From Glandiceps talaboti (taxonomy: Eukaryota > Hemichordata > Enteropneusta > Spengelidae): DNA of 64,000 nucleotides. Under the pieces are notes generated by a model. The model was given only the letters and a program-made list of their open reading frames with translations, had not been told where the DNA came from and did not search any database. Every line of letters begins with the position of its first letter. Position 1 is the first letter of the stretch. Of this stretch, positions 9,478-26,583 are shown piece by piece. The stretch spans positions 10,182,501 to 10,246,500 of the forward strand of contig NC_135553.1 in assembly GCF_964340395.1 (NCBI RefSeq), read 5' to 3'. A program made the translations under genes and the position numbers.

Positions 9478-12400
9478 ATGGAACTGAGGGTAGGGAATAA
9501 GTATCGTTTAGGTCGAAAGATCGGCAGTGGTTCATTCGGAGACATCTACTTAGGTAAGTGAGAGTACGACATTTCGTATTTCCTGGATTTTTTTCTGTGT
9601 TTTGAAAACAGCGAGTGGAACAAGCCAGCCAGCTGCAATGGCTGAACGCCAGGCCACTGGCACTCCTGTGTCAATGGTCATTGTTCTTGACCGTTTAGGT
9701 GTTTTTAGTCGGCGTTTTTCACTGCTTACGTGTACAACAAATCTGAAAGATTGTTTGTTTCGTGTTTTCACAGGTACAAACATAACGAACGGTGAAGAAG
9801 TGGCAATCAAACTAGAATGCGTGAAAACAAAACACCCTCAGCTTCACATAGAAAGCAAATTTTACAAAATGATGCAGGGAGGAGGTAAGTTTATTTTTGA
9901 TTTTTTCTCAAAAATTTTGGTTATTTTTTTTGAGTGGACTTCATACCGCTTGGAATGTATACACCTGTCGCCAGTGTCTATATTTGTATACAAACTTCAG
10001 TATGTATGCCAGCCTTTTGTGTAGTGGCCCTTAGTGATAAATGAGCAGTGTATCAAGTTGGAAAATCGATGCCAAATTGCCCTGTCGAGTTTCAATTTCT
10101 TTCACATATGCTATTCCATTGGGTAGTGGGCGTTTGACCCGCCCGTCTGTCTTGTACTATGACTGTCTGAGATTTGTAACAAAAGATGTGGGCAAGCTTT
10201 GTCTTAGTGTCTATTGTGTTATCGAAATCATTAGTAGATGTTACAATTTACAATACAGAATATAGTCCCTGAAAATAAATTTGTCAGTTTTACATATGTA
10301 TACTTCTCAAACTGATATCCATGTTTTCTAGGTTTCACTTGTATGAAAAAATAGACTTAATTTTGATATAAATTCTTAGTCCAAAGACTGTTTTTACAAT
10401 ATTTAGAGTGAAACCAGTTTTATTGTACAAATTGTCTAATATGTGGGAGGAGCCTCTCCTTGATGACTAATAGTAATTTGAAAATAGTTTGATTGTGATA
10501 CCTATTGTCTCCACATAGTATGGCCATATTGCACTTCTACCCCATCCTGTTTTGATAATCATACACGGATGGATGGATTTGTTATTATTTTAGTGGAGTA
10601 TCTGTTATTAAAAAGGAAGTTGTGGATACCTAAATAGTAATGTAAGGTCATTGACAGATAAAACACACATTATGCCAGAAAATGACACATACTGATGTCA
10701 TCACCGTTTCTGATTACATTGTTGAGGACAGAACAGTATAGTCCATTGCGTGTATTTGTGAGTCTTAGGGATCCCTTTTGTGAAGTGCCTGTTGTTTTTG
10801 TCAGTCATTTGAATCAGGTTAGCCAGCAAACTCTTGCAATATGAGAACTGTTTCATCCTTTTGTTTGGTTGACACTCTGTTGATTCAGTGTTTGGAGACT
10901 TTTTTATGTGGTAAACCAATAGTGAAAAAAAATCCACCTTATTATTGATACAAAAGGGAAATTTTATTTAAGACTATTAGGCTTAGAGCTTGATTATCTG
11001 TGCAATAAATTTTCATTTAGCTGCAACTGGGGTTTTCAGGTCAAAAGACCAATTATCTAATTCCAGTGGTGTCATATGTCAGATCCTGTTTCTAAAATAT
11101 CAAAAACATTGACAATGCGAGCCAGAAACAGCACAGTGTCTGAGAAAAAAGGGTATTGTAAATATGTCAGTGAAATATTATCTGAGATGGTGAGCGGTGA
11201 AGTGTTCATGTTGAAGTTCGATAATAGGGTTGTAAATTAAAAACAGGTCAAGTCATTTGCAAAACATACAGCATATACTACCTGTGATGTTTTTTTTAAA
11301 TGATATATAGCCCAATTATTTTACACTGATAAAAGAGTGGCATTGAAAAACTGAATAAAACATAATTATGCATGTTTTTTTTTGAAAATAACCCCAAAAA
11401 AGCTTGTTTACCAGTATTCTTTATCAGTGAAGGCCAATTTTACAATGGAAGGCCACCTATGCTGAAATATAAATAAATGTATTGTGAGGCAAGGCTTCCT
11501 AGGAATATAGTGGGACACAACTGAATGTATCATTTGTATGTGGGAAATGAGAGCTGCCCCGTTTTTTGTCGTTTTATACTAACTAACGTACACATACATA
11601 TTTTGAACATGACATTGAGTTGAATTGTTTTGTAATACTGTTGGTGAAGTAGTTGAGTAGCTGAATAGCTTCATGAGATGTTAATAGTGTCATATTCATT
11701 GATACACTGTGAACAGTGAACAAGGACATTCCTTTCAACAAATTGTAATGAGTCAAGAATTTTGTAAGATTGAGTCTCTATTTCAACGCCTTGCCCAGTC
11801 TGTGCTGTCTGCTATTCTCAGAAGATACTACAAAGTGGTGATATAAAAAATATGTGCAATCTCTGGAAGAATAACTCTTAAGATATTATTACCAATCAGC
11901 AAATGTTTTAACGCTTGCTGATGGAGAGTAGTGTCTGATTTGTGGTAATGGTTAGTGTACCAGAAAACCCGGTTAGAGCCAGTCAAAACAGGAAAGATAA
12001 GAGAATTGTGTCTGAAAGATGTTATGGAACCAAACAATGGGGGTCAGTAGCTTCCAGATTGTAAGGGTTTAGTATGACCTGTTCGGTTTGTGAATGAATT
12101 GAATTGACAGTGCGGGTATACATTGTTCTTGTGTTCACGGCTATCTATTTCAGCACAGCAAAAGACTGTTGGTGAGCAACAAAAACTGTGCTGTAGTTCT
12201 GCATGGTATATTGTAGAAGGGTATTCAAATGTCAATTTACCTGCCTGTCGCCATGGAAGAACGGAGACGGGTCTGCCACACAATGGTCCAGACGGCTGAT
12301 CATGATTTATGCAAACAAAAGACAACTTTGCTAGACTACAAGCTCTGTATCGTTGTCTGTCAGTCAGTCAGACAGACAATATCTATATAAACATGGCACA

Positions 12401-15400
12401 TATTTAGTCGTAGAATGCTGAAATGTGTCAACAGAAAAAATCTAGGACAGTAGAGTCGGTTATGTTTTTGTTAAAATGTAATAATGCTAGGATGTGTCGA
12501 ACTTTCGTGTACATCATTTGTACATTGTTGTACTAGATTGTAGATGTAACAAATATTATATATGAAAAAAAACAGTGTAGATGATATACTATATCCTAAG
12601 TAAGTGCAGTCTGAGAGTGCTGGGAAAAGATATACATTGGCCAGATTTTATTTCAATGTCCTTCGTGCAGACATTATGTTTGCATGACTGAGATTAAGGT
12701 TTAAGAGTCAGAACTATAAAGTACCATGAGAATATTTCATCTTCATGCGTGGCTTCATGTAACAGTTCTAATGAAATAAAATCTAGCCAGTGTATTTATG
12801 TCTATAATCACTACTTAGTCTAGAATAAAATTTATGTAAACCGTGCCTGGTATAAAACGTAAAGCTGGGACTAGATTTTGAAAATATGTATGTTGTGATA
12901 AGCCATCTTTAGCAGTGTTTTCACCAAGGTGTGGGGACCCTGGTAACAGAGGAGAAAATCATGAAAAATGTATATATTTTTAGTAGCTCGGTTAGATTTT
13001 ACAACCTGACTGTTGTAACAAAAATACACTATTTTGGATGTAATTTCCAAATTACACTACTGATTGTTATATTTGTGGATTGACATTAAATCACTATACA
13101 ACCATACAAAGGTACATAATTTATGACAACACATAAAATTGGTTGTGTAATGTCTGTAGCCCGAGGAATATTGGCCCATTTGTTAACAATAGAATGGGGG
13201 TTTGACTATTTCCGTTTGTGAAACTAAATCATAAAGTGTAATTATTTTTTTTCATTGCAGTGGGCATCCCAACAATAAAATGGTGTGGTGCAGAAGGCGA
13301 TTACAATGTCATGGTTATGGAACTCCTTGGTCCAAGCCTCGAAGATCTCTTTAATTTTTGTTCAAGAAAATTTAGCCTTAAAACAGTTTTACTTCTAGCA
13401 GATCAGTTGGTAAGTAGATGACTCAAGTGATTTATATTATTTTTTTGCGTAAAAATAAGTCTCACATTTCACAACTCAGTGGTTGGATACATATATGTGA
13501 ATCACCTTGTAGTTGAAACTCAGTTACTGTCCTGGTCTGTTCCTGTCATTCAGACTTGTACATAGTGTATATCTAATTGGTGATGGTCGGACACTTGAGT
13601 TTTAGTAGAGTTCAGGAGTAGAGTAGCAGCCAAGGCTGTTTTCTCATCTGTGCGTTGGTATGAGAGATAAGCCTAGAGATTGCCAGTGTTTTGGTTTCAT
13701 GTTAGTCATCTACTCTAATCACTGACCCCGACTCTTGACCATGCTAGATTCATTGGGCTCCGTGACAGCTGGGATTATATTGTTGTGTAAATCCAGTCAC
13801 TTATTGCATTATTGAAATAACATGTGTTCCAAACATTTAGAGTGTGTTGCTGCCTAAAAACTACACATAAAACTAGCTGCAATAGTTGTAGCGTTTGCTG
13901 TGATTTTGAGGGTTTGTTGTTCTGTTTTGTGGGTTTTTTTTCGTTCGATGTTTAACTGGAAGCAAATACTACAATTCCTGTAATGTTAACGCAAATAGAC
14001 GGAAACCATTCAGATCTGAATCACAAAGTAGGGTGGATTTTTCTGCTAAATTACGCCTTACCTGCCAAAAAATTGGACATTTCCTAACTCTACCATTAAT
14101 TACAAAGCCGTCAAGACCCAAGAAATACCCCCAATCCATCAACATCGGCAAAAGTAGCAACACATGCATTATTTTGAAACAGGTAGTATGCTGACATTTT
14201 ACTCACGTTTTCAGCATGATCTCATCTATTTGCATTAACGTTACAGGAATTGTAGATTTGCTTCCAGTTAAACATCTGACTGAAAAAAAGCATAAGACAG
14301 AAGAAAATACCTTCAAAATCACAACAAACACTACACATAAAGCCTGCTTGAAAATGTCGCCATTTTGTGTGAACTGATAGTTTAAGGATTAGGAAAAAAA
14401 TTATGTTCAGGAGTGGCTCATGTACTCTGTTCATGTATAACAAATGAGAGGCAAAATAATTTGTGGAGGTGACCAAAATTTTGCTGACGTCAGCATCAGT
14501 CAGGGGTGTATTACAATAGGTTGTCATTAATGTCCACCCCTGACAATGTTGACGAAAGGTCAGCAAAAATTTCTTATTCACACCCAAATTTTTTTTTGAC
14601 TCTCGTGAGTCGAAAGTTAAATGTGTAAATTACTTTCAGCTAACTATAGAGTTAAAGTATTCAGCCCATATGGTCCAATATACACGAGTCATGTGAACCA
14701 ATGTTTTCAATTAACGTTGTCAAAATTAAAAGCTAAGTGAGGTTTGATGAACAATTCTGTGTACCATTGCTGGTATGTTACGTACAAACCTGGAATCTAT
14801 GCCTGTTCAGTAGTTTGTAGCAGTCAAATGCTCCTTATCCTTATTTAGTAGCTTTTTAAGTTGTTTGTATATATTGCAAAATGTGTCACTTTGGCTGGGA
14901 AATTTCTGTCTGGAGTGCCTACTATCTGTGGGTATTGAATTCTCATATAAACATATTTCTGTCATATATCATATTGCCACAAACATGACAAACTATAATT
15001 GTGTAAATATGATTGTATCCCTGAATTATTATTATATGTCAATGAAAATTAATGCATGAAAATAATGTAATACCCAGAAGTAGTGTTGTGTCAGAATGTT
15101 CTGATAGTCATTCTGTAGCCTACATTATCAAACAGTTCATAGCCCAGAGATTTGGCTATCTTGTTTGAACACGTCATTCACCCAAACAGAGTCAATCAAG
15201 CCAATGTGTAGAGCCAGATTACAGCCAAGTCTCTAGGCTATAGAGTCCACAGTGTTAGGAAATTATTTTACAGCCTCAGGCAGATCACTGTACTTCAAAG
15301 AAATTTCATAAAATTGTTAAAAATTACGGAATGTATTATCATGTAAATTCCATGTTTACATGAAATCAACAAATAAAATTGCACTATTCTTCTATTGCCT

Positions 15401-18400
15401 TCATTATTCCTCTCCATGTAGTAAAAATATAAATGTGGTTTGATTGAACCGACACATTCAGTTTTGTAATTCATGTATAAACTTGACAACTCAGCAGTGA
15501 ATCAAGGAGTTACAGCAATCAGCATGATGTTTGGCATCCTTGAAATAAAATGTTCTAGAATATTAAAAAAAAAAAAAAAATACCAGACAGATTCAATTTG
15601 CCCATCAATATATTCTGGACATGTTTTTAATTTAAAATTCATTACATTCATGTTATCAACCTGGTGACCATACAAATAGGCAAGAATTAAATGTCACTCT
15701 TCTCATGCATACTAACATCTAAACATGTATTGTTAGTTAGGTATCAGAAACAATGAAACCCAAAAAACAAATGGTTTATTATTTAACCTCAGCAAACATA
15801 ACAAAGACTCAAATCAACACTTATTCTGGCTGGTATAAATTGTATGGATGACAATGTATGTAGATTAGAACTAAAAATAGTACCAATGGAACTGCTTCAA
15901 CTTGTGAGACCTGATGCAAGTGAATGCATTCTTGTGGTAATGAGCCTAGTGAAGCAAGAATGTCTTCAAGTATTTCGCTGGAGTTGGTCTTTCCCAGGCA
16001 TAGTGTCAGGATATACCAGTGGCTTAAAACATGTGCCATTCATTAGAGTAAAGTCTGGCTATTATCCAATAGTATCTATGCTTAGACTATAGTACTGTGG
16101 TGAAGTTACAGTGACTATTTTAGAAAATAAGAAGTGCGTCATAGTTTGTAAGTAATTGCAATAAAAAGTTAATTAATTAACCAGAATAATCGAAGGATGC
16201 TGACAGCCTTCTTTACCCAAGGATTAATGTGATTAAAATCCGATGTAGATGTTGGCTAATCGTTCATTGCTTTTTTACCTTCGTTATTTTGCCTGAATTG
16301 ACCTTCTTGGTACATGTTTAACTTTTTATCCTGATCATTTGTACATTTGTACATCTGAACTGGTGCCCATGCCCATGCTGTTCTGCTAAGTGAGCCACAC
16401 AGCCAATGAGGTTGCGTCTTACTTGTCATGGGCATATGCATTGAATATCAACAAACAACAGGGCATTACTTGTGCACACAGGCAACTGACAACGTACAAA
16501 GTATTTCAACTGTGATTGTATTACTATATATTTACGGTAATTAAAGAATTCTTGTTTAGATGTACCTCTATGCATTTCATCTTATCTTACATGTTAGTTA
16601 CATTGCAACGTGTTTCCTGGGTAGTGTTCATGTTTATCTCAATGAACGTGTACGCATTCTCTGTAGTACGCTTCTCCTCAAACGTAAAGTAGTCATGAAG
16701 TATTGTACGATTCATAGAAATATTTGCCAGTTGTGTTATATGAACTCAAAAAAGGGGAAATTTAAGAAATAATTTCTAAAAAAAAATGTCTTTATCGTGA
16801 AAATTTTGGTCGCGTCGCATTGCATTGTGTTGCGTACACTATAACCTGTCTTCAGTAAGACGCAACCTGATTGGCTGTGTGGCTCACTTAACAGAACAGC
16901 GTGGGCATGGGCGCCAGTTCAGATGTAGAGGAGGCGATCAGGATAAAAATGTAAACATGTACCATGAAGGTCAAGTCAGGCAAAATAATGAAGGTAAAAT
17001 AGCAATGAACGATGAGCCGACATCTGCATCGGATTTTATTTTTTAATCAGATTGCCCAAAGATGTGTACCATGTTTCAATCTTTGCATTTTTAAAGGCCC
17101 ACGTAAGATGGGGATTAAAATTTAGATGTGAAAACAATTGTCAGGTAGAGCTACATTATCAAAGAAGTTGTCCCTGAACTCAGAACAATAGACTGGTCCT
17201 ATCTAATCCTCATGGCTCCACAGATGAGATAACACTAATACTAAGCTAGGGGATTCAAACATTTGGCTTAAAAATGAAAACTCTAGGTAAAGGACTGTGT
17301 AGAGGTATACTACATTTGTATATTATGACTCATAATTAGGGAACACAATTTACATGTATATCTATTCACATTATTGAAATTTGAAGCAAGGTGACTGCAT
17401 TCAATGACCTTGGCATACTTAAATTGTAGGAGTGTGTCATTCTGGTAATAAATGTTGTTATATGTATTTAGCCTTCTAGCCTTGACTTTGATCACTGGCA
17501 TGTTGTAATAAATGCAAAGGAGAAGGCCTGCTACTGTTGTGTGTCATATTTAGGTTGGGCAGCATTATACAGCAACAGTGTAACTTTAATTCCAGAATAA
17601 TTTTTTCATTCTATTGTTACTGGCAAACAAAAACCAGAGAAAAGAACCGTCACAGTTCAAAGAGTTGCTGGTACATATGTATGTGTTCATAATGTTTTTT
17701 TTGTGTGAAATATGGAAATTTCAGATTATGGTACTTTGTGAATTGTCAGCCCTATATTTATGGTTTATTGAATTTGTGTGCATGGATTTCAACATTGTAA
17801 TTTACATGGAAGGTCATACATTTGTACATTTTATTTAGATATGCATCGATTTTGTGAAATATGAAAATTCAGAATGTGGTGTTTTTATGGATCACACGCT
17901 ACATGGTTTTCTTGTATATACTTTTTTTGTAGATTAAAATATTGTAATTTACATGGAAAGTTCATAACATTCTATTTTGATTATTCAGTCACTTCTTGAC
18001 AATTTTTGTCAAGGGTGTCACCTTTTCCAGACTGTAGTATTTGTGGAATGATAATTAGATGCAATAAGAGTGACATGGCTGGTCATACCCTGGGGCGTTT
18101 GTGGGTCAAAGTAAACAATCACCTAGAGTGTTTGATTGTAGCAGATGGTAGGACAATCTGATACAATGTCAGATTCTCAGTTGATGGTCTTTGCAGCTCA
18201 GATAGAATTGATGGGGGGGGGGGGGGGGTAAATGACAACGCTTTCAAAATTTGCAGACTATAAAAAATTAAGTTTGATGGAAGATTATCTAGAATTTGAT
18301 GTTTCCGTGTTTTGTGATGAGATAAAATACACCATAAAAAATTTCAAAATCTTTAGATGATGTGTAGTGTGGTGTTTAGTGTTTTGCCATAGACTATTGA

Positions 18401-21400
18401 GTGACATCACCCCAGGGTCTATGGTTCACAATGCTAAATTCTTCCCAGGTCTGCAATGTTTTTGCTAAGGTTGGGAAACCCCGGTAACAGAAAGGGAGAA
18501 TATGATAAAACTGATGTAGTTTCCGATACATTGTACATAATGTTGGTGGGGAACCCCGATAAAATGACGGCGAACTTGGGTAGATTTTACCTACTTACCG
18601 CCCTTAACAAAAACACTGTCATAATATATCATAGTGGGTACTGTCATATCATTTCAAGAGCAAGAAAAAATGTATTAAAAAAAAGGTTAATTTAGTATTT
18701 TGCTCTTTTGTTAGAGAAAATTACTGGCCTGTCAGCTCTCTCATATATTAATTTTGTTGTATCAACTATCATTATAGCCAAGATAACTAACTTGCATGCT
18801 TCAAAACATGTTGAAAAAAAATACTATATCTAAATCGGACGCATGGGACTAGAATTTGTTATACAAAGTGGCTCTGAAGGTATTAATGTACAGTATAATT
18901 TGATTAATGTATTGTAAAATACAAGGTCAATGCTATAGATGTGGGATTATTGACCCCAAGAGTGTGAGCTCTGAAATGATTAAGATAGTAAATATTAATT
19001 TGTATCATTAGATAGCGTGATAATTTCAGTTTTTAACGTGTAATATTTTAAATTAAAAGATTTATCGTGTGGTTGTTTGATACTAGAGTAGTTTCAGGGT
19101 GCAATATCATACTAATGTACCTTTCTTTTCCCCCCAACAGATCAGCAGAATTGAATACATTCACTCCAAGAACTTCATCCACAGAGATGTAAAGCCAGAC
19201 AATTTCCTCATGGGGCTGGGTAAAAAAGGCAATCTTGTATATATCATAGACTTTGGACTAGCCAAGAAGTACAGAGATGCACGGACGCATCAACATATAC
19301 CATACAGGGAAAACAAAAACCTTACAGGGACAGCCAGATATGCCAGTATCAATACACATTTAGGCATAGGTAGGTAGCAATGTCGTTAATTTGTCATCAT
19401 CGACTGAGATAAGTTTTCAAGTCAGTTGTGGTCTGTTCCTTTCATAAGGACCCTTGCAGGACTTGTAATGTGTCACTATTAGTACAAATTGTTGTCATGC
19501 AGTGGCTGTGCACGTCAAGTACAACACTTGAGTTGCATTCAATTTGTCTCTCATCGTAGATTGAATCACACAGATGTCAGTTTTGTTCATTGTAGCCACT
19601 GGAAAACTAGACTTTCCATTCGTCATTATAAATCACACAGTTGTTGTAGCTGTGCTGCCAAGTGAATGATAGCATGGCTTATTAACTATGACAGCAAATG
19701 AATTAGGTGGGAGCCGTGCTATCCTCAAGTGCACTTTACTTCTTCAGTCTCATTCCAACACTATGGGACAGCAATGGTAACTCTGTATTCTAAAGACAGG
19801 AGGCAAATAATACCATAGATTAGTCGTTGTCTCAAGTGTCAAAACCCTGGGGTCAGGCATGCAGGACTTTTGTCAAAGCATTTATTGTTTGATGGGTTTA
19901 GTTTCACTGATTATCAAAGACAGCTATATTAAAACTTTGTGAACATGATGAATTTGGTGTACATTTTATAACTTCATATCTCAATCAGTGAAATTAAAGT
20001 GAAATTAAAACAATTTTGCTAGCCCCAAGGATACAGAAGTGAAATATAAGTTGAGCTAATATAGATACTTATATACTTTGCCACCAACTTTCATGAGCAT
20101 ATAAACTTCTCCATAGGGATATAGCGTAACTTGATGGGAAACAGTCGAACAAACATGTTTACACTGTTTGAAAATACTAGTAGTTCACAGGGTCAAACTT
20201 GTAATTCTTATTGCTGGCATATTGTTTTTATGATTAAGATTATAATTGGTCAGCCATAACTGCCTATTTAGATGCTATTCCTTAATATTTTTCATGGTTC
20301 AGCAAAAGAAAATATGAGTGACCTAAGGGGCCTTTGTCGCTACTCATCTAGCGACTCATAGTGACATCCCTTAGGTCAGGAGTATTTTCCAGCTGAGTGA
20401 AGAAAAATATTGGAGACTAACTGTTATACCAGTGCCAGTAATATCAAAGAAAAATCGGGGAAAGTAATGGCAATCTTGAATGTTTTGACTGATATTTCAA
20501 ACACAGCAGAACCAGTGACACGCACGCATTGTCGTGATGTAGAACGACCAGCGTATATAGTCCATATTTTTTGTTGAACCTGGCTCGTGCATGGTATAAA
20601 TTGTGTTTATGAAAAGATCATAATTATCCAGCCATAACTGTATAATGTTTTTGTACATAGAAGTGAATATGTTTGCACCTTTGTTTCAATTCATTTCTCT
20701 TAAATTTTGTGTCTGTCAAAACTCAGAAAATTAGTTGGCAATAAATGTGTAAGTCTTTGTCATGGTCACACTATATCATATCAAGCTTGTCTTTCAAATG
20801 AAAGGTAGGTTTCACATACAGTGAGGCCACGATAAATATGTGGGCTGTTTCCCAATTTAATTGTGCTGCTTTTTACTGGAGAGCCTATATACCATTGTAT
20901 ACTTCTCCAATATAACGTGTCTATGGGCGTAGTCCAAATAGTGATCACAGGTCATTGTTTTGATGCTTTAGGTATTCAAATCAAGGGGTCATTGACCTGA
21001 TGGCTAATTGTATGTTTTGCTTAGGATGCGTTGCTTACATTGTGATGCATGATACATGTAGTACTACTGTAGGTTGTATTGTATACTTCATTTTCACTGG
21101 GATACACATCTACATTCAAGGTCATTACTGTTATCATCAAGTCCCAGATATGCAACCATTTCCTTCTCTTTGTGTGATGACTGGAAATTCTAGTCCAGTG
21201 ACCTGTTTCTGTTTTCACATCAAAATAACGACAACAGGTCAAAGGTCAAATGCACAGAAAGAAAAGGAATCAGATAAATAAGAATTACATGCTTTGACCT
21301 AAGCAGCAGTGAAATGATTTTACATTATTCGACAATATTTGTGTTTATAGAGAGGGAAAGTATGAATGAAATAAAGTGGTCTTGTCATAGACAAGTAGTA

Positions 21401-24400
21401 ATAAAACCCATATGAGTGCTAGTAGTTTTGTGACTGAATGAAGGAACTGCGGGAGATAATTTCATGCTTTGAAGGAAATAATTGCAATTTTGAATGTGTA
21501 TGTTTGTTCTACTGCTCCACCACCACATAGTCAGTGACATGAATGGGCAGTGTTGTGACATGGAACAATCGGTATTTTTTGTTGTGGTGTGTACAACTTG
21601 GTGAAATTAATAGGAAAATCATGTGACCCCCAGTACTATTGTTCATGTTGGTGTTCTTTCGAAATGCTACTCAAACTAGGATGGTAAGACTAACAATGTA
21701 TATAGAAAAGCAAATTGACACGCTTTTCATTTTTGTTCTTGCAGAGCAAAGTCGAAGAGATGATTTAGAATCACTGGGCTACATGCTAATGTACTACAAT
21801 CTAGGTAGTCTACCATGGCAAGGTCTCAAAGCAGCCACCAAGAGACAAAAATATGAAAGAATAAGTGAAAAGAAGATGTCAACACCAATAGAAATACTTT
21901 GCAAAGGCTTTCCATGTAGGTGATAGTCTTGTCAAATTTCAACTTTGACCCATCACTGCTTTCAAAGTACGCTGGTCTATCTTCTTTTCTTTGCTTTTTC
22001 TTCCCATTTCATATGTCTTCTATGCATAAACTTCTGGATCACCCTAGCTATAAACAGGGTTCTCTACAGGCAGTTAATCAAGTTGTACCTGTATGCATAG
22101 CAAATCATATTTGGTATGTAAATTAGATTATTTACATATCAAAATGTTTTGTTATGTAAATACATGATTTGCATTTAAAACCCAGCTGAGAGTAGGCTCT
22201 TGTCTAGCAAATTAGTTTTGGCATGTAAATTGTGTGATTTACATATCAAAATACTGTTTTTGGTATATCAATACATGATTTGTATATCAAAAACCCAGCA
22301 GAGAGCCTCTTGTCCAGCAGATCAGGGTAGATATGTAAATTGTGTGATTTGCATATCATTTGCTTTTGATATGTAAATATATTATTTGCATATCGTAACT
22401 ACAAATGAAAGTAGAGAACCTTGTATGGTGGCTTATTCCCAATCACACTAGATAATAGACCCTTTCTCTTTCTGTATTTTTCTGTCCAACAGCCGAGTTT
22501 GCAACATACCTGAATTATACTCGGTCATTACGATTTGACGAGAAGCCCGACTACTCCTATCTCCGGCAACTCTTTCGCAATCTATTCCATAGGCAAGGTT
22601 TCACATATGACTACGTCTTTGATTGGAACTTGCTTAAGTTTGTAAGTATTTCATAATTTTTTTGTCTCGGAGTTAGTTTTTGACTAATACTTCTCAACCC
22701 TGTGTCATCAATCTACAGCGGATTTTGCTACGTACCTGAATTATGTCCGATCCTTGGGCTTTGAAGACAAGCCTGACTATTCCTATCTACGACAACTCTT
22801 CCGAAATCTCTTCCACAGGAAAGGTTTCACCTATGACTATGTCTTTGACTGGAACCTCCTCAAAATTAATGTAAGTACAGTATTTCGTTCAGGGTGGCTG
22901 TGTGACAAAGAAATTCATCAATCAAGCAAGGATCCGGGCAAGGTCAAAAGAAGCTGTTGTGTTGGTGATGGGTATAGAAGGTTGATGTGTGGAATTTCAT
23001 TTCATATTTTTACTGTCATTTATGTAGTCAACGATTTCCACAATTATTCCAATATTTTAGTGTTTGTATGTCGGGAAGTTTTTTGCAAGAGATAAAATCT
23101 TGCCAAGTACCTTGAAAATGTTTCCTGTACGTTTGTGTGGTAAATTATAGTGTAATGGAAAGTATTTCAGCTAACAAATTACCCTGCTCTATGAATATGT
23201 TCCTGAAACTTGGCAGAAACACTGCACAGATACCATCACTTTTAGAAATTCTAAGGAAGAAAGAACTCTTTGAAAATGAAGGTCTTTAGAGTTGTAAATT
23301 TGCTTGAACAAAGTAATTCTTTCATTCATGTTTTCACCTAATCCTTAACCAAAATGGTATAGTCTTATTGTATTTTTGCAAGAGACTATTCCATTTAACA
23401 ATAAAGAAGGGAAATAGGGTAAGTGTACTGTTTTATAACTGCTATCTAAAGCAGGTAAGAATGTACTTAGTCTCTGTGAACTGAATATCTATTTTGCATA
23501 TCAACTTGCTTTTCAGATTAGCTGAGTCATCATGATATAGGAGTACATGCAATGTCTTTTGAACAATGGGGGTCATTCATGTGTGGAAACAAGTTCTCTA
23601 TCATTACAGATTAGTCATTGATTTACCACACACTGCAAAAGCCATGATAACAAATTTGATACATAAAATTTGAAACAAACAGGATCATGCAAATCAGTGC
23701 AGATGTCACATGAGATTGTGTGGCTGTTTTATTTTGAGTTTACTTTTGTCTTTTCAGAAATCAGAATCATTTAAAAAACAGTCAATTTCACCAGACAATG
23801 CCAAAACTATGTCACACACACACACACACACACACTTTGTTTAAAATGGCCTTATGGATTAGGAGTTGGTATTTATTTTGGAATGTCCATTCATAACACA
23901 ACTTTATCATGGTGTCCCTTACTTGAAAAATCAACATAAAACAACTTATGCCAAGTCATTGTTTGTAACTCCAATACATTGCTAAAAACTACAAAAAAAA
24001 AATGTGTAAAAATGTTTATTGAACAGACAATAAACATTTTATGCATTTATGAATCTTTTACAATATATTGAGTTACAATCAAGGACTTGGCGTATGTTGT
24101 TTTATGTTGATTTTTCAAGTAAGGATGCCATGATAAAATTGTTTTATAAATTACAAATTCCAAATAAATACCCAGTCGTCATCCATATGGCCACAGTAAT
24201 TACAGACATTAAGTTCAATGTTATACTCAATAATGTGCTGCAATTGTTCTTGTTCTTTCATTTGTAATCAGTTGGTAACTCTGAAATATTTCCTTATCTA
24301 CGTATGTTTAGCACCAAAACGATAAAAGTAGGTGTGTGATATAGTTTAAGCAATGTTTGATGAAATTGATTGCTAGATATCAAGTTTTGTCATCCCTGCT

Positions 24401-26583
24401 TCAAAACTCTCCATGCCCACCCCTTTCCCAACAATGCTCTTCTCTTCTCTAATAGGGTGGTTCTACAAGAACACCGCATGCAGATGATGACAGACGAGAC
24501 CGCGAGGACAGACACCATCCTCGCAGTTCAACCACCAGGGCATTGGCAGGTACAGCCAAGCTAAAACAGGATCCAGGGCCGCCATTAGGTGCCGGTGCAC
24601 CAAGCCCTGCCCCTGGTAAGTTAACACAGCCAAAACAACGACAGAACTGGGGATGGGTGTAATCTCAGTCAGTCTCATCATGTGTACAACATATGGAGCA
24701 ACACAGATTTTATACATCAGTTTTGTAAACATACAGCCTTTGTTTTCTTTGATTTCAAAGTGATTATAGCAACAAAATCAAAACCTAGACAAAAATAACT
24801 ACATGTTTTCTGTAGAAGAAAAAAAAAATGTAATTTTAAATTTAAAAGTACCAGTTATGGTCACAATTTTGCAGCTCTTGTACATATTATTTGTGCCTGA
24901 AAAAGGGCATTTTAATTTGATCTATTTACAAGCCCAGCACCAGTTCTTTTGATTGCAAATTACTTTTTTCTGCTTGTTTTGATGTGCAATATTTCTGCTT
25001 TATTTCCACATTCTGTGTCTAATATTTTCAACTAGCCACTCTTCACCTTTCATCTGTATTGTAACTATCAATGCCACTTTCATTGCGCTTTGAATACTTC
25101 TGCTTCAGAACTATTCCCATTGTCTACTGAAACAACTCATTCAATGAAATCTTCTTTCTCCTGGGGGGGGGGGGGGGGGGGGGGCATTTGTTTGTACACA
25201 GAAAAGTACAAGTTTAGCAAAACAAGATTAACTGTGGCCTAAGAACTTTTTTCCGTCAGTATGCTGTTTAAAAATGTTGAGGAAATATTCACAGAAAATG
25301 GTCAAAGAATCATTCTCTCTGAACAATGAAAAGCTAAGCAAAATTCAATGTTATTCTGTATTTGATGACACCTGCATAATGAAAGCCATAAACTGTTAAC
25401 TAAAATTAGTCATTCTGAGATCTTTCTCAATGTTGTGTATAGATAATGTAAAACAGAATGATATAATCTGAGACTCTTTCCAGACATAGAATTTACAAAA
25501 CTTAGTGTTAACCCTTGTATAGCATCTAGCAGTAGTACAATGGGAATCAGTCACTGGAAATTTACCATGTACTAAACAGGACTTGTTTTTTTTCCCCATT
25601 TCTCATGCATGTTTGTTCTGTCTAGGTTCTGGTGTAGAGCGTAGTAGAATTAGAACTGGTAGAACTAATAAAGACAGGGCCAGTGAGTCTAGAACTGGCA
25701 GGACAAAACATAGGCTACCAGAAACCCACTACAACTAACAACACCACCACCAACAACAACACAAGGGCCACAGATAGCACTAGTACACAAATCCTTTTCA
25801 TATAGTCTCTATTTTGACCAAGAACCTTTCACAGTTTTATTAGTGTATCGAGAGGGGAAGAATTTTGATTTGACAGAAGTAAAACTTTGTATGAGAAAGT
25901 ACTGTTTCTCTTTGTCTATCTCAATATAAGTGAATTCTCTTATGTCTGTATTTTGCAAATGAGACTTTTGTAGACTACACATCTGTATTGTAATAACAGT
26001 CACTTGCATCTGTTGCTAAGGTTTAACACTACTGCATTGATATGTACAACATATGGGTGTTTTCATCCTAGGCAGACCTGCACTACTTGTAAAGCATGTT
26101 GGGTGCACTGTAGTGAATGGAATTGTAACTATTCATGGCACTGTTTAAATTTTTTGGTTATGGCCATATTTGATGGCTTCACCAAATATACCCAGCTTGG
26201 TTTGCCTGGTTAGTGCAGGACCGCTTCATTTCCGCTTTCATTCCAATAGTAACCTTGTCACCTATCATAGTGTTCACTACGGCCATCTACGGCACCGATT
26301 GTACACAGTGTGTTTTATCACTTTTTTGCATTACTTAGCTAATCCATCTCCCCGTCCAGTGTCTCGAGCCGAGGCTCAGAGAAACGTCAGCCGCCGGCTA
26401 CACCGAGGAGTACCTCCCATATCAAGCGCAGATCCCCTCAGGAGGGAACCAACCCGCATGTCAACCTCGTATCCAACCATGAACGGAATGGGCAGTGGAC
26501 CTATCCGACCAGAGACTGCACTCAAAGAAAGAGACCCTGATAACACTGCTAGGTCATCTTCCTCCAGATATCTCAAAAAATAA
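9478..26583 (+). CDS. CSNK1D: Casein kinase 1 delta/epsilon, complete
   Basis: Coding exons are 9478-9553, 9774-9884, 13261-13409, 19141-19369, 21745-21915, 22493-22641 (or 22719-22870), 24456-24615 and 26339-26583 (TAA). The main form has 429 codons; human delta/epsilon have about 415. The start [20 protein letters not shown] is that of the family. Visible are the glycine loop, Lys38 (AIKLE), HRDVKPDN with Asp128, DFG at 149-151, and Arg178, the residue changed in the hamster tau mutant. [13 protein letters not shown], the nuclear-localisation/kinesin-homology stretch, is also present. The tail keeps SPRPVS and RLHRG plus a Ser/Arg-rich end, where human isoforms are autophosphorylated. Family roles include phosphorylation of PERIOD, Wnt and Hedgehog components in nucleus and cytoplasm. 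Delta and epsilon separated within vertebrates, so this is probably the single co-orthologue. Unusual points are the duplicated exon 6 and a second possible last exon. Confidence 0.96.
12913..13030. mobile_element. hAT-like MITE, shorter relative of 18454-18618
   Basis: The left end CAGTGTTTTCACCAAGG and right end GTAACAAAAATACACT form imperfect inverted repeats. The inside shares CCCTGGTAACAG and GGTTAGATTTTAC with the copy at 18454-18618. No target duplication was seen. It lies in the intron before the third coding exon of CSNK1. Confidence 0.5.
13885..14345. mobile_element. Long imperfect inverted repeat, foldback element
   Basis: The left arm (about 13887-14001) and right arm (about 14225-14340) are inverted copies. 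Shared words include TGTGATTTTGA, GATGTTTAACTGGAAGCAAAT, TACAATTCCTGTAA and GCAAATAGA. Arms of about 115 bp flank a core of about 220 bp without a gene. A separate smaller inverted repeat around CAGGGGTG/CACCCCTG follows at about 14473-14575. No target duplication was resolved. Confidence 0.7.
16225..17054. mobile_element. 830-bp Mutator-like non-autonomous element
   Basis: The ends match the CAATCTGATTAAAATC termini of the 223-bp palindrome (left end two mismatches; the right end carries a small internal insertion). Terminal inverted repeats extend about 220-230 bp on each side, ending near the shared GACGCAACCT(G/C)ATTGGCTG block. Flanks CCCAAGGAT (16216-16224) and CCCAAAGAT (17055-17063) agree at 8 of 9 bases, as expected for an aged 9-bp target duplication. 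The unique middle, about 400 bp, has no transposase. It lies in an intron of CSNK1. Confidence 0.85.
17698..17980. repeat. Tandem duplication, about 165 bp unit
   Basis: Two copies share TGTGAAATATGRAAATTCAG and ATTGTAATTTACATGGAAAG-type words in the same order. No coding sense is apparent. It lies in a CSNK1 intron. Confidence 0.6.
18454..18618. mobile_element. hAT-like MITE
   Basis: The ends are CAATGTTTTTGCTAAGG and CCCTTAACAAAAACACTG, inverted copies of each other with few mismatches; CAGTG-type ends are usual for hAT elements. The 165-bp inside has GGAAACCCCGGTAACAG and the related GGGGAACCCCGATAA. No 8-bp duplication was found, so the family call rests on the termini. Confidence 0.6.
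20277..20422. mobile_element. Imperfect hairpin repeat, MITE-like
   Basis: AATATTTTTC and GTGACCTAAGG on the left pair with CCTTAGGTCA and GAAAAATATT on the right, around a short CpG-containing centre (CGCTACTCATCTAGCGACTC). A related sequence downstream (about 20455-20580) recurs in diverged form near 21475-21600. These look like parts of one interspersed family. Confidence 0.5.
22105..22396. repeat. Tandem array of octamer-like words (ATTTGCAT/ATGTAAAT)
   Basis: About two and a half diverged units of about 125 bp. Each contains facing copies of ATGTAAAT...ATTTGCAT or ATTTACAT, then AAACCCAGC(T/A)GAGAG and CTCTTGTC. The word ATTTGCAT is the POU-factor octamer. The array lies between CSNK1 exons 5 and 6a, starting 190 nt after exon 5. 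Confidence 0.7.
22493..22641 (+). CDS. CSNK1D: CSNK1 exon 6a (canonical copy of a duplicated kinase-domain exon)
   Basis: The exon is 149 nt. It enters after one base of a Ser codon and leaves at a codon end. It encodes [15 protein letters not shown], then the [16 protein letters not shown] core, and ends DWNLLKF, the C-terminal lobe of the kinase. Residues that separate it from 6b (Arg in SLRF, Gln in HRQG, final KF) agree with human CK1 delta/epsilon. The acceptor is TTTCTGTCCAACAG and the donor GTAAGT. The downstream intron to 6b is only 77 nt. Confidence 0.93.
22719..22870 (+). CDS. CSNK1D: CSNK1 exon 6b (diverged duplicate, probable mutually exclusive exon)
   Basis: The exon is 152 nt with the same entry and exit phases as 6a. 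It encodes [15 protein letters not shown], the same [16 protein letters not shown] core, and ends DWNLLKIN, one residue longer. Against 6a, changes are E/D, T/V, R/G, D/E, E/D, Q/K and F/IN. The acceptor is CATCAATCTACAG and the donor GTAAGT. Roughly 19 of 50 codons differ silently, which points to long purifying selection rather than a dead copy. Using 6a and 6b together would shift the frame, so the two should be alternatives. Confidence 0.9.
23818..23836. repeat. (CA)n microsatellite
   Basis: A short CA tract lies just left of the foldback MITE at 23848. Confidence 0.8.
23848..24192. mobile_element. 345-bp foldback MITE
   Basis: Left arm (23848 to about 23975) and right arm (about 24060-24192) are inverted copies. 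Ends are GGCCTTATGGATTAGGAG and CGTCATCCATATGGCC, with inner words TTTATTTTGGAA / TTCCAAATAAA, AAACAACTTATGCCAAGTC / GACTTGGCGTATGTTGTTT. The centre holds a smaller perfect hairpin, AAAATGTTTATTG paired with CAATAAACATTTT. It encodes nothing. Related pieces lie at 1-37 and 51526-51667. No target duplication was found. Confidence 0.85.
25163..25184. repeat. 22-nt G homopolymer
   Basis: The longest of eight G or C runs of 12 or more bases in the window. It lies in a CSNK1 intron. Confidence 0.9.
25626..25738 (+). CDS. CSNK1D: Candidate alternative last exon of CSNK1
   Basis: After TTGTTCTGTCTAG an open stretch continues in the phase left by exon 7 (24456-24615). It encodes 37 residues and ends in TAA: a basic Ser/Arg/Thr-rich tail with RTGRT occurring twice, finishing LPETHYN. 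The usual last exon (26339) uses the same phase and carries the conserved SPRPVS/RLHRG tail. This one would therefore replace it and give a shorter protein of about 385 residues. Vertebrate CSNK1D is known to vary its C terminus by splicing. No clear AATAAA follows closely, which lowers confidence. Confidence 0.6.

Follow-up and report, generated by a model that had tools for sequence, protein, structure and literature searches.

The window, a stretch of 64,000 nt from the acorn worm Glandiceps talaboti, an enteropneust hemichordate of the family Spengelidae (contig C6:10182501-10246500 of a genome of 590,416,875 bases in 47 contigs), contains a CK1 delta/epsilon gene on the plus strand at 9478..26583 (window coordinates are used for this gene throughout). 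Exons were placed by tblastn and their splice sites were then read by eye. Coding exons 1 to 5 (9478..9553, starting from the ATG; 9774..9884; 13261..13409; 19141..19369; and 21745..21915, which ends at phase 1) are supported by tblastn matches, splice sites and the spliced product, and are followed on the same strand by two similar exons, 6a (22493..22641) and 6b (22719..22870), with an intron of 77 nt (22642..22718) between them. Coding exon 7 (24456..24615), placed by its splice sites and the spliced product, starts at phase 0, and exon 8b (26339..26583) is the last coding exon. A possible alternative last coding exon, 8a (25626..25738), ending in ETHYN before the stop, is indicated by an acceptor and an open frame. 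Compared with solved structures, the translation of exons 5 and 6b scores highest against CK1 delta (217 bits for the best structure), followed by epsilon (214), alpha (174) and gamma (144), indicative of membership in the delta/epsilon group, and the tail encoded by exon 8b is delta-like. A genome search in which the best 12 candidates were scored recovered a single CK1 delta/epsilon gene together with an intron-bearing CK1-alpha, a CK1-alpha-like gene lacking introns and a CK1-gamma, a lower bound for the family in which the paralogue names follow in part from features that we take to be typical of each group. The intronless gene (L001; C16:3282040-3285357, minus strand) has an open frame of 365 aa and lies on the same contig as the intron-bearing CK1-alpha; we considered it as a possible record of expressed 6b and rejected it, as it is CK1-alpha-like and derives from neither copy. 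No comparable exon pair was seen in CK1-alpha or CK1-gamma in the stretches of this genome that were searched.

The first-pass annotation had described 6a and 6b as adjacent exons of 149 and 152 nt with good splice sites and the same phases, a description borne out by the gene model and by an independent, gene-blind repeat search, which recovered the pair as a 149-nt direct repeat with 81% identity and a spacing of 226. Each exon is preceded by an AG acceptor and has a GTAAGT donor, and both enter at phase 1 and exit at phase 0; as adjacent homologous exons of equal phase and similar length they have the properties by which tandem-duplicated exons are recognised. Between the two copies 23 of 50 codons are identical, 20 differ silently and 7 carry replacements, close to the roughly 19 silent codons and 7 residues estimated at first pass. 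Exon 6a is the conserved copy and 6b the diverged one, with the replacements E247D, T255V, R259G, D261E, E262D, Q280K and F295I (CK1 delta numbering) and one codon more than 6a, a terminal Asn. Pfam does not distinguish the resulting isoforms; its kinase matches stop at residues 225-228, upstream of exon 6.

Both lengths, 149 and 152 nt, leave a remainder of 2 on division by 3, and as exon 5 ends at phase 1 and exon 7 begins at phase 0, the reading frame is restored only when exactly one of the two copies is used. Joining 6a to 6b produces a stop after six residues of 6b, in agreement with the earlier statement that using both copies would shift the frame, and skipping both produces a stop at residue 256, so that joint inclusion and joint skipping each lose the frame, as is characteristic of mutually exclusive exons. 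The spliced product containing 6a and 8b is identical to P0015, the NCBI casein kinase I-like isoform X2 of Glandiceps talaboti, and the product containing 6b and 8b becomes P0001 (NCBI isoform X3) once 7 residues are dropped through an internal acceptor of exon 8b at 26360, 21 nt downstream. The two kinase versions proposed at first pass, differing at SL(R/G)F and at KF/KIN, thus correspond to X2 and X3, predicted protein models in which both exons are present, one at a time. NCBI models of this kind generally rest on transcript evidence. The sequence of the 6b isoform is already public as an NCBI model and hence is not new; the recognition of 6b as a member of an exclusive pair may be.

We favour the reading, with a probability of roughly 0.87, that 6a and 6b arose by tandem duplication of one CK1 delta/epsilon exon and that each productive mRNA contains exactly one of them, resulting in two kinases. 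The stop that follows a 6a-6b join would also be expected if 6b served solely as a poison exon, whose inclusion together with 6a would lower kinase levels by splicing-coupled decay and whose coding capacity would be incidental, and in its favour other genes are known to regulate themselves in this way. Preservation of the frame would not be required of a poison exon, however, yet 43 of 50 residues are retained in 6b although silent divergence is saturated, and 6b belongs to a full-length protein model (P0001), which makes this explanation improbable.

The pattern of substitution points to purifying selection on both copies. Comparison of 6a with 6b gives a dN of 0.08 (NG86) or 0.07 (ML) and a dS of 1.86 or 1.74, values based on 50 codons from one species with dS saturated, and 12 of 17 fourfold sites differ. 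When the 31 observed nucleotide differences were placed at random on the exon, they caused a mean of 20 amino-acid changes (minimum 11 in 20,000 trials) and introduced a stop in 74% of trials, as compared with the 7 changes and no stop observed. In another simulation, which constrained 6a and left 6b free (300 runs at each of five distances), the number of changes never fell below 9. This minimum came from the shortest distance, with a mean of only 5.6 silent codons; across all five distances the mean number of silent codons did not exceed 7.6, as compared with the 20 observed. The claim that selection has kept both copies is therefore supported by dN/dS and by neutral simulations that never gave 7 or fewer changes. 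The intron flanks of 6a and 6b agree at only 12/40 and 13/40 positions, splice signals included. Together, the silent versus replacement pattern, the simulations and the dissimilar flanks suggest that both copies have been retained and that, as judged from the sequence, the duplication of the exon is old; the saturated dS precludes a date. All 50 residues of 6a are unchanged in the Ptychodera flava protein P0011 (2/216 proteins in all, P0011 and P0015, see below), which by parsimony places the replacements on the 6b side.

To place the 6b residues among known proteins we used a search weighted to exon 6, which returned 735 proteins of which the best 120 were examined, and an exon-only search for short fragments, which returned 96 proteins, all examined, giving 216 proteins in total. 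P0001 scored 117 bits in the weighted search and the next protein 97. All seven 6b residues occur together in P0001 only and in none of the other 215 proteins (best 120 of 735 plus the 96), the next best having four. Among these 215 proteins, Asp247 and Lys280 were found in none (21 have no residue at 247), Gly259 in one, Val255 in 5, Ile295 in 13, Glu261 in 56 and Asp262 in 152, so that roughly three of the seven replacements stand out as unusual. Clustering of the protein database at 90% identity could conceal a 6b isoform from another acorn worm. Comparison of the 6b protein with a phage collection gave no match. The rarity of Asp247, Lys280 and Gly259 and the finding of no 6b-like protein from another species in this set are what a recent or decaying functionless duplicate, kept by chance or by gene conversion, would lead one to expect. 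Set against this are the 20 silent versus 7 replacement codons, the open frame and intact splice sites, and the failure of neutral models to reproduce them, with the unrelated intron flanks and a dS near 1.8 arguing further against a recent origin or conversion, so that we regard a functionless 6b as very unlikely. That the assembly has set two alleles in tandem is highly improbable, as the silent divergence is far beyond what we would expect of alleles, the intron flanks are unrelated and a 580-bp query of the locus matches only once in the assembly.

The 77-nt intron offers a candidate mechanism for keeping 6a and 6b apart. A branch-like motif with its branch A about 46 nt from the donor had been pointed out at first pass, and TGACTAAT, a motif resembling TACTAA, is present at 22681-22688 with the likely branch A at 22687 (nt 46), 31 nt before the end of the intron. 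By a rough home-made score the branch candidates are TTTTGAC (A42, 5.4), GACTAAT (A46, 5.2) and TTCTCAA/TCTCAAC (A55/A56, 4.0/3.7); the last AG before the 6b acceptor is at nt 34, and all four candidates fall within the zone open to branching. The smallest efficient distance between donor and branch point is about 50 nt in human systems, where introns shorter than 80 nt are spliced less (PMC6692369), a limit which may not be that of the acorn worm, and a survey of human exon pairs lists 57 potential cases (9% of clusters) with a distance below 50 nt (PMC5740500). On motifs alone, A42 and A46 lie under this limit and A55 and A56 over it. Steric blocking of 6a-6b splicing is therefore plausible, and would be relieved if A55 or A56 served as the branch point. 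Of the nine introns measured in the gene this one is the shortest, the next being 220 nt. CK1-alpha in the same genome has a 93-nt intron with branch candidates at 26, 51, 57 and 65 nt and no clear winner, indicating that short introns do occur in this genome; the scale of intron lengths was set by the introns of the CK1 delta/epsilon gene and by approximate gaps in CK1-alpha and CK1-gamma. Of nine acceptors compared, that of 6b is the poorest in pyrimidines (fraction 0.64, versus 0.77 for 6a), and its longest pyrimidine run is 6, versus 14 for 6a. The exon 2 acceptor has a shorter run still (5) but no rival exon, so a weak tract is by itself no mark of regulation. Competing RNA structures of the docking/selector kind were also considered and rejected, as the duplex energies of the 77-nt intron with the neighbouring introns were reached by 24/100 and 48/100 shuffles. 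Two further features were noted in the flanking introns: a repeat in three diverged copies with spacings of 107 and 110 nt in intron 5 (22099-22391), and a long inverted repeat in the intron after 6b (23847-24193) with 55-nt arms that are 93% complementary within 71-nt arms at 76%, which resembles a small transposon.

Under mutually exclusive splicing, the two kinase forms would have different sequences towards the C-terminal end of the catalytic lobe, over residues 246-295 and the additional Asn of 6b. The longer pyrimidine run of 6a and its ancestral residues suggest that 6a is the default form, in which case 6b would be the regulated one. Direct joining of 6a to 6b would be hindered by the branch point 46 nt from the donor, and leftover 6a-6b products would presumably be removed by nonsense-mediated decay. 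All seven changes fall outside the ATP site and catalytic loop, which from the gene model and general kinase anatomy we take to lie in exons 1-4, suggesting that any difference of the 6b kinase would concern the binding of substrates or partners and not catalysis itself. The changes Arg259 to Gly and Gln280 to Lys alter charge in the C-lobe, and the 6b replacements would most probably affect how substrates or partners dock, as predicted from their positions. The circadian period is set by CK1 delta/epsilon, which also has roles in the control of Wnt and of cell division. A more speculative proposal, which we think possible but doubtful, is that acorn worms of this lineage split a kinase that ranks among the most conserved in animals into two regulated forms within one gene, that 6b, through its Gly259 and Lys280 (Arg and Gln in 6a) and its KIN in place of KF, docks clock, Wnt or cytoskeletal partners differently, and that a splicing switch does the job of the separate vertebrate delta and epsilon genes. 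A selected second version of part of a catalytic domain amounts to a natural mutagenesis experiment, in which 6b marks positions that can be changed in a living animal though they are hardly ever changed in the proteins examined here. The locus would also provide a compact test case for branch-point-enforced exclusivity in a non-vertebrate deuterostome.

The mutually exclusive exon pair proposed here is of a known sort, located in a gene, CK1 delta/epsilon, that is unexpectedly conserved for such an arrangement. By analogy, its nearest parallel is the pair of JNK exons 6a and 6b with their alternative tails; the two JNK exons are homologous and located in the C-lobe. JNK1/2 (MAPK8/9) are likewise Ser/Thr kinases that combine alternative exons 6a/6b with alternative C-terminal tails, and the choice of exon is reported to alter substrate binding (PMC8699841). 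JNK differs in belonging to another kinase family and in the exon concerned, so that the pairs are not homologous, and the acorn worm pair is known from sequence alone. For the mechanism, the closest likeness is to exons 4a/4b of OGDH, which are kept mutually exclusive by a branch point lying less than about 50 nt from the donor of the intron between them, the distance in ocean sunfish being likewise 46 nt (PMC7969005). Those OGDH branch points are experimentally mapped (PMC7969005), whereas the ones of the acorn worm come from motifs with several candidates. A donor-branch distance below about 50 nt is described as enforcing exclusivity in alpha-tropomyosin as well (PMC6692369). FYN (FynT/FynB) is a further kinase gene with mutually exclusive homologous exons, but it encodes a tyrosine kinase and its pair covers the SH2 linker and the beginning of the kinase domain instead of the end (PMC9741552). 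Among the matches listed in the open-licence literature, as judged by titles and the beginnings of abstracts, we found no paper on a mutually exclusive or duplicated exon pair in CK1, and two surveys of human exon pairs mention neither CSNK1 nor casein kinase in their main text (PMC9741552; PMC5740500).

Within the same gene family, alternative splicing has been described for the tail. Human CSNK1D exon 9, 64 nt long and containing a stop, changes the C-terminus when included, much as 8a and 8b would, and its inclusion is said to alter circadian rhythm (PMC8903011). This exon affects the tail, outside the kinase domain, and the paper does not present it as a duplicated exon (PMC8903011). Alternative exons of CSNK1D, not further specified in the source, are regulated by ESRP2 (PMC10167241). 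When the protein tail was used as query, three of 283 candidates were returned (P0001, P0015 and a Ptychodera protein), all lacking the 8a tail. Exons 8a (25626-25738) and 8b (26339-26583) are two possible last coding exons that would give different C-terminal tails. The alternative acceptor 21 nt into 8b (26339-26360) yields the short form seen in P0001 and in Ptychodera P0011; P0015 has the long form. Outside the acorn worms, the abalone (Haliotis asinina) isoforms P0070 (X5) and P0050 (X7) differ by VS after LKF, as would result from the use of a second donor lying 6 nt downstream where the matching region ends.
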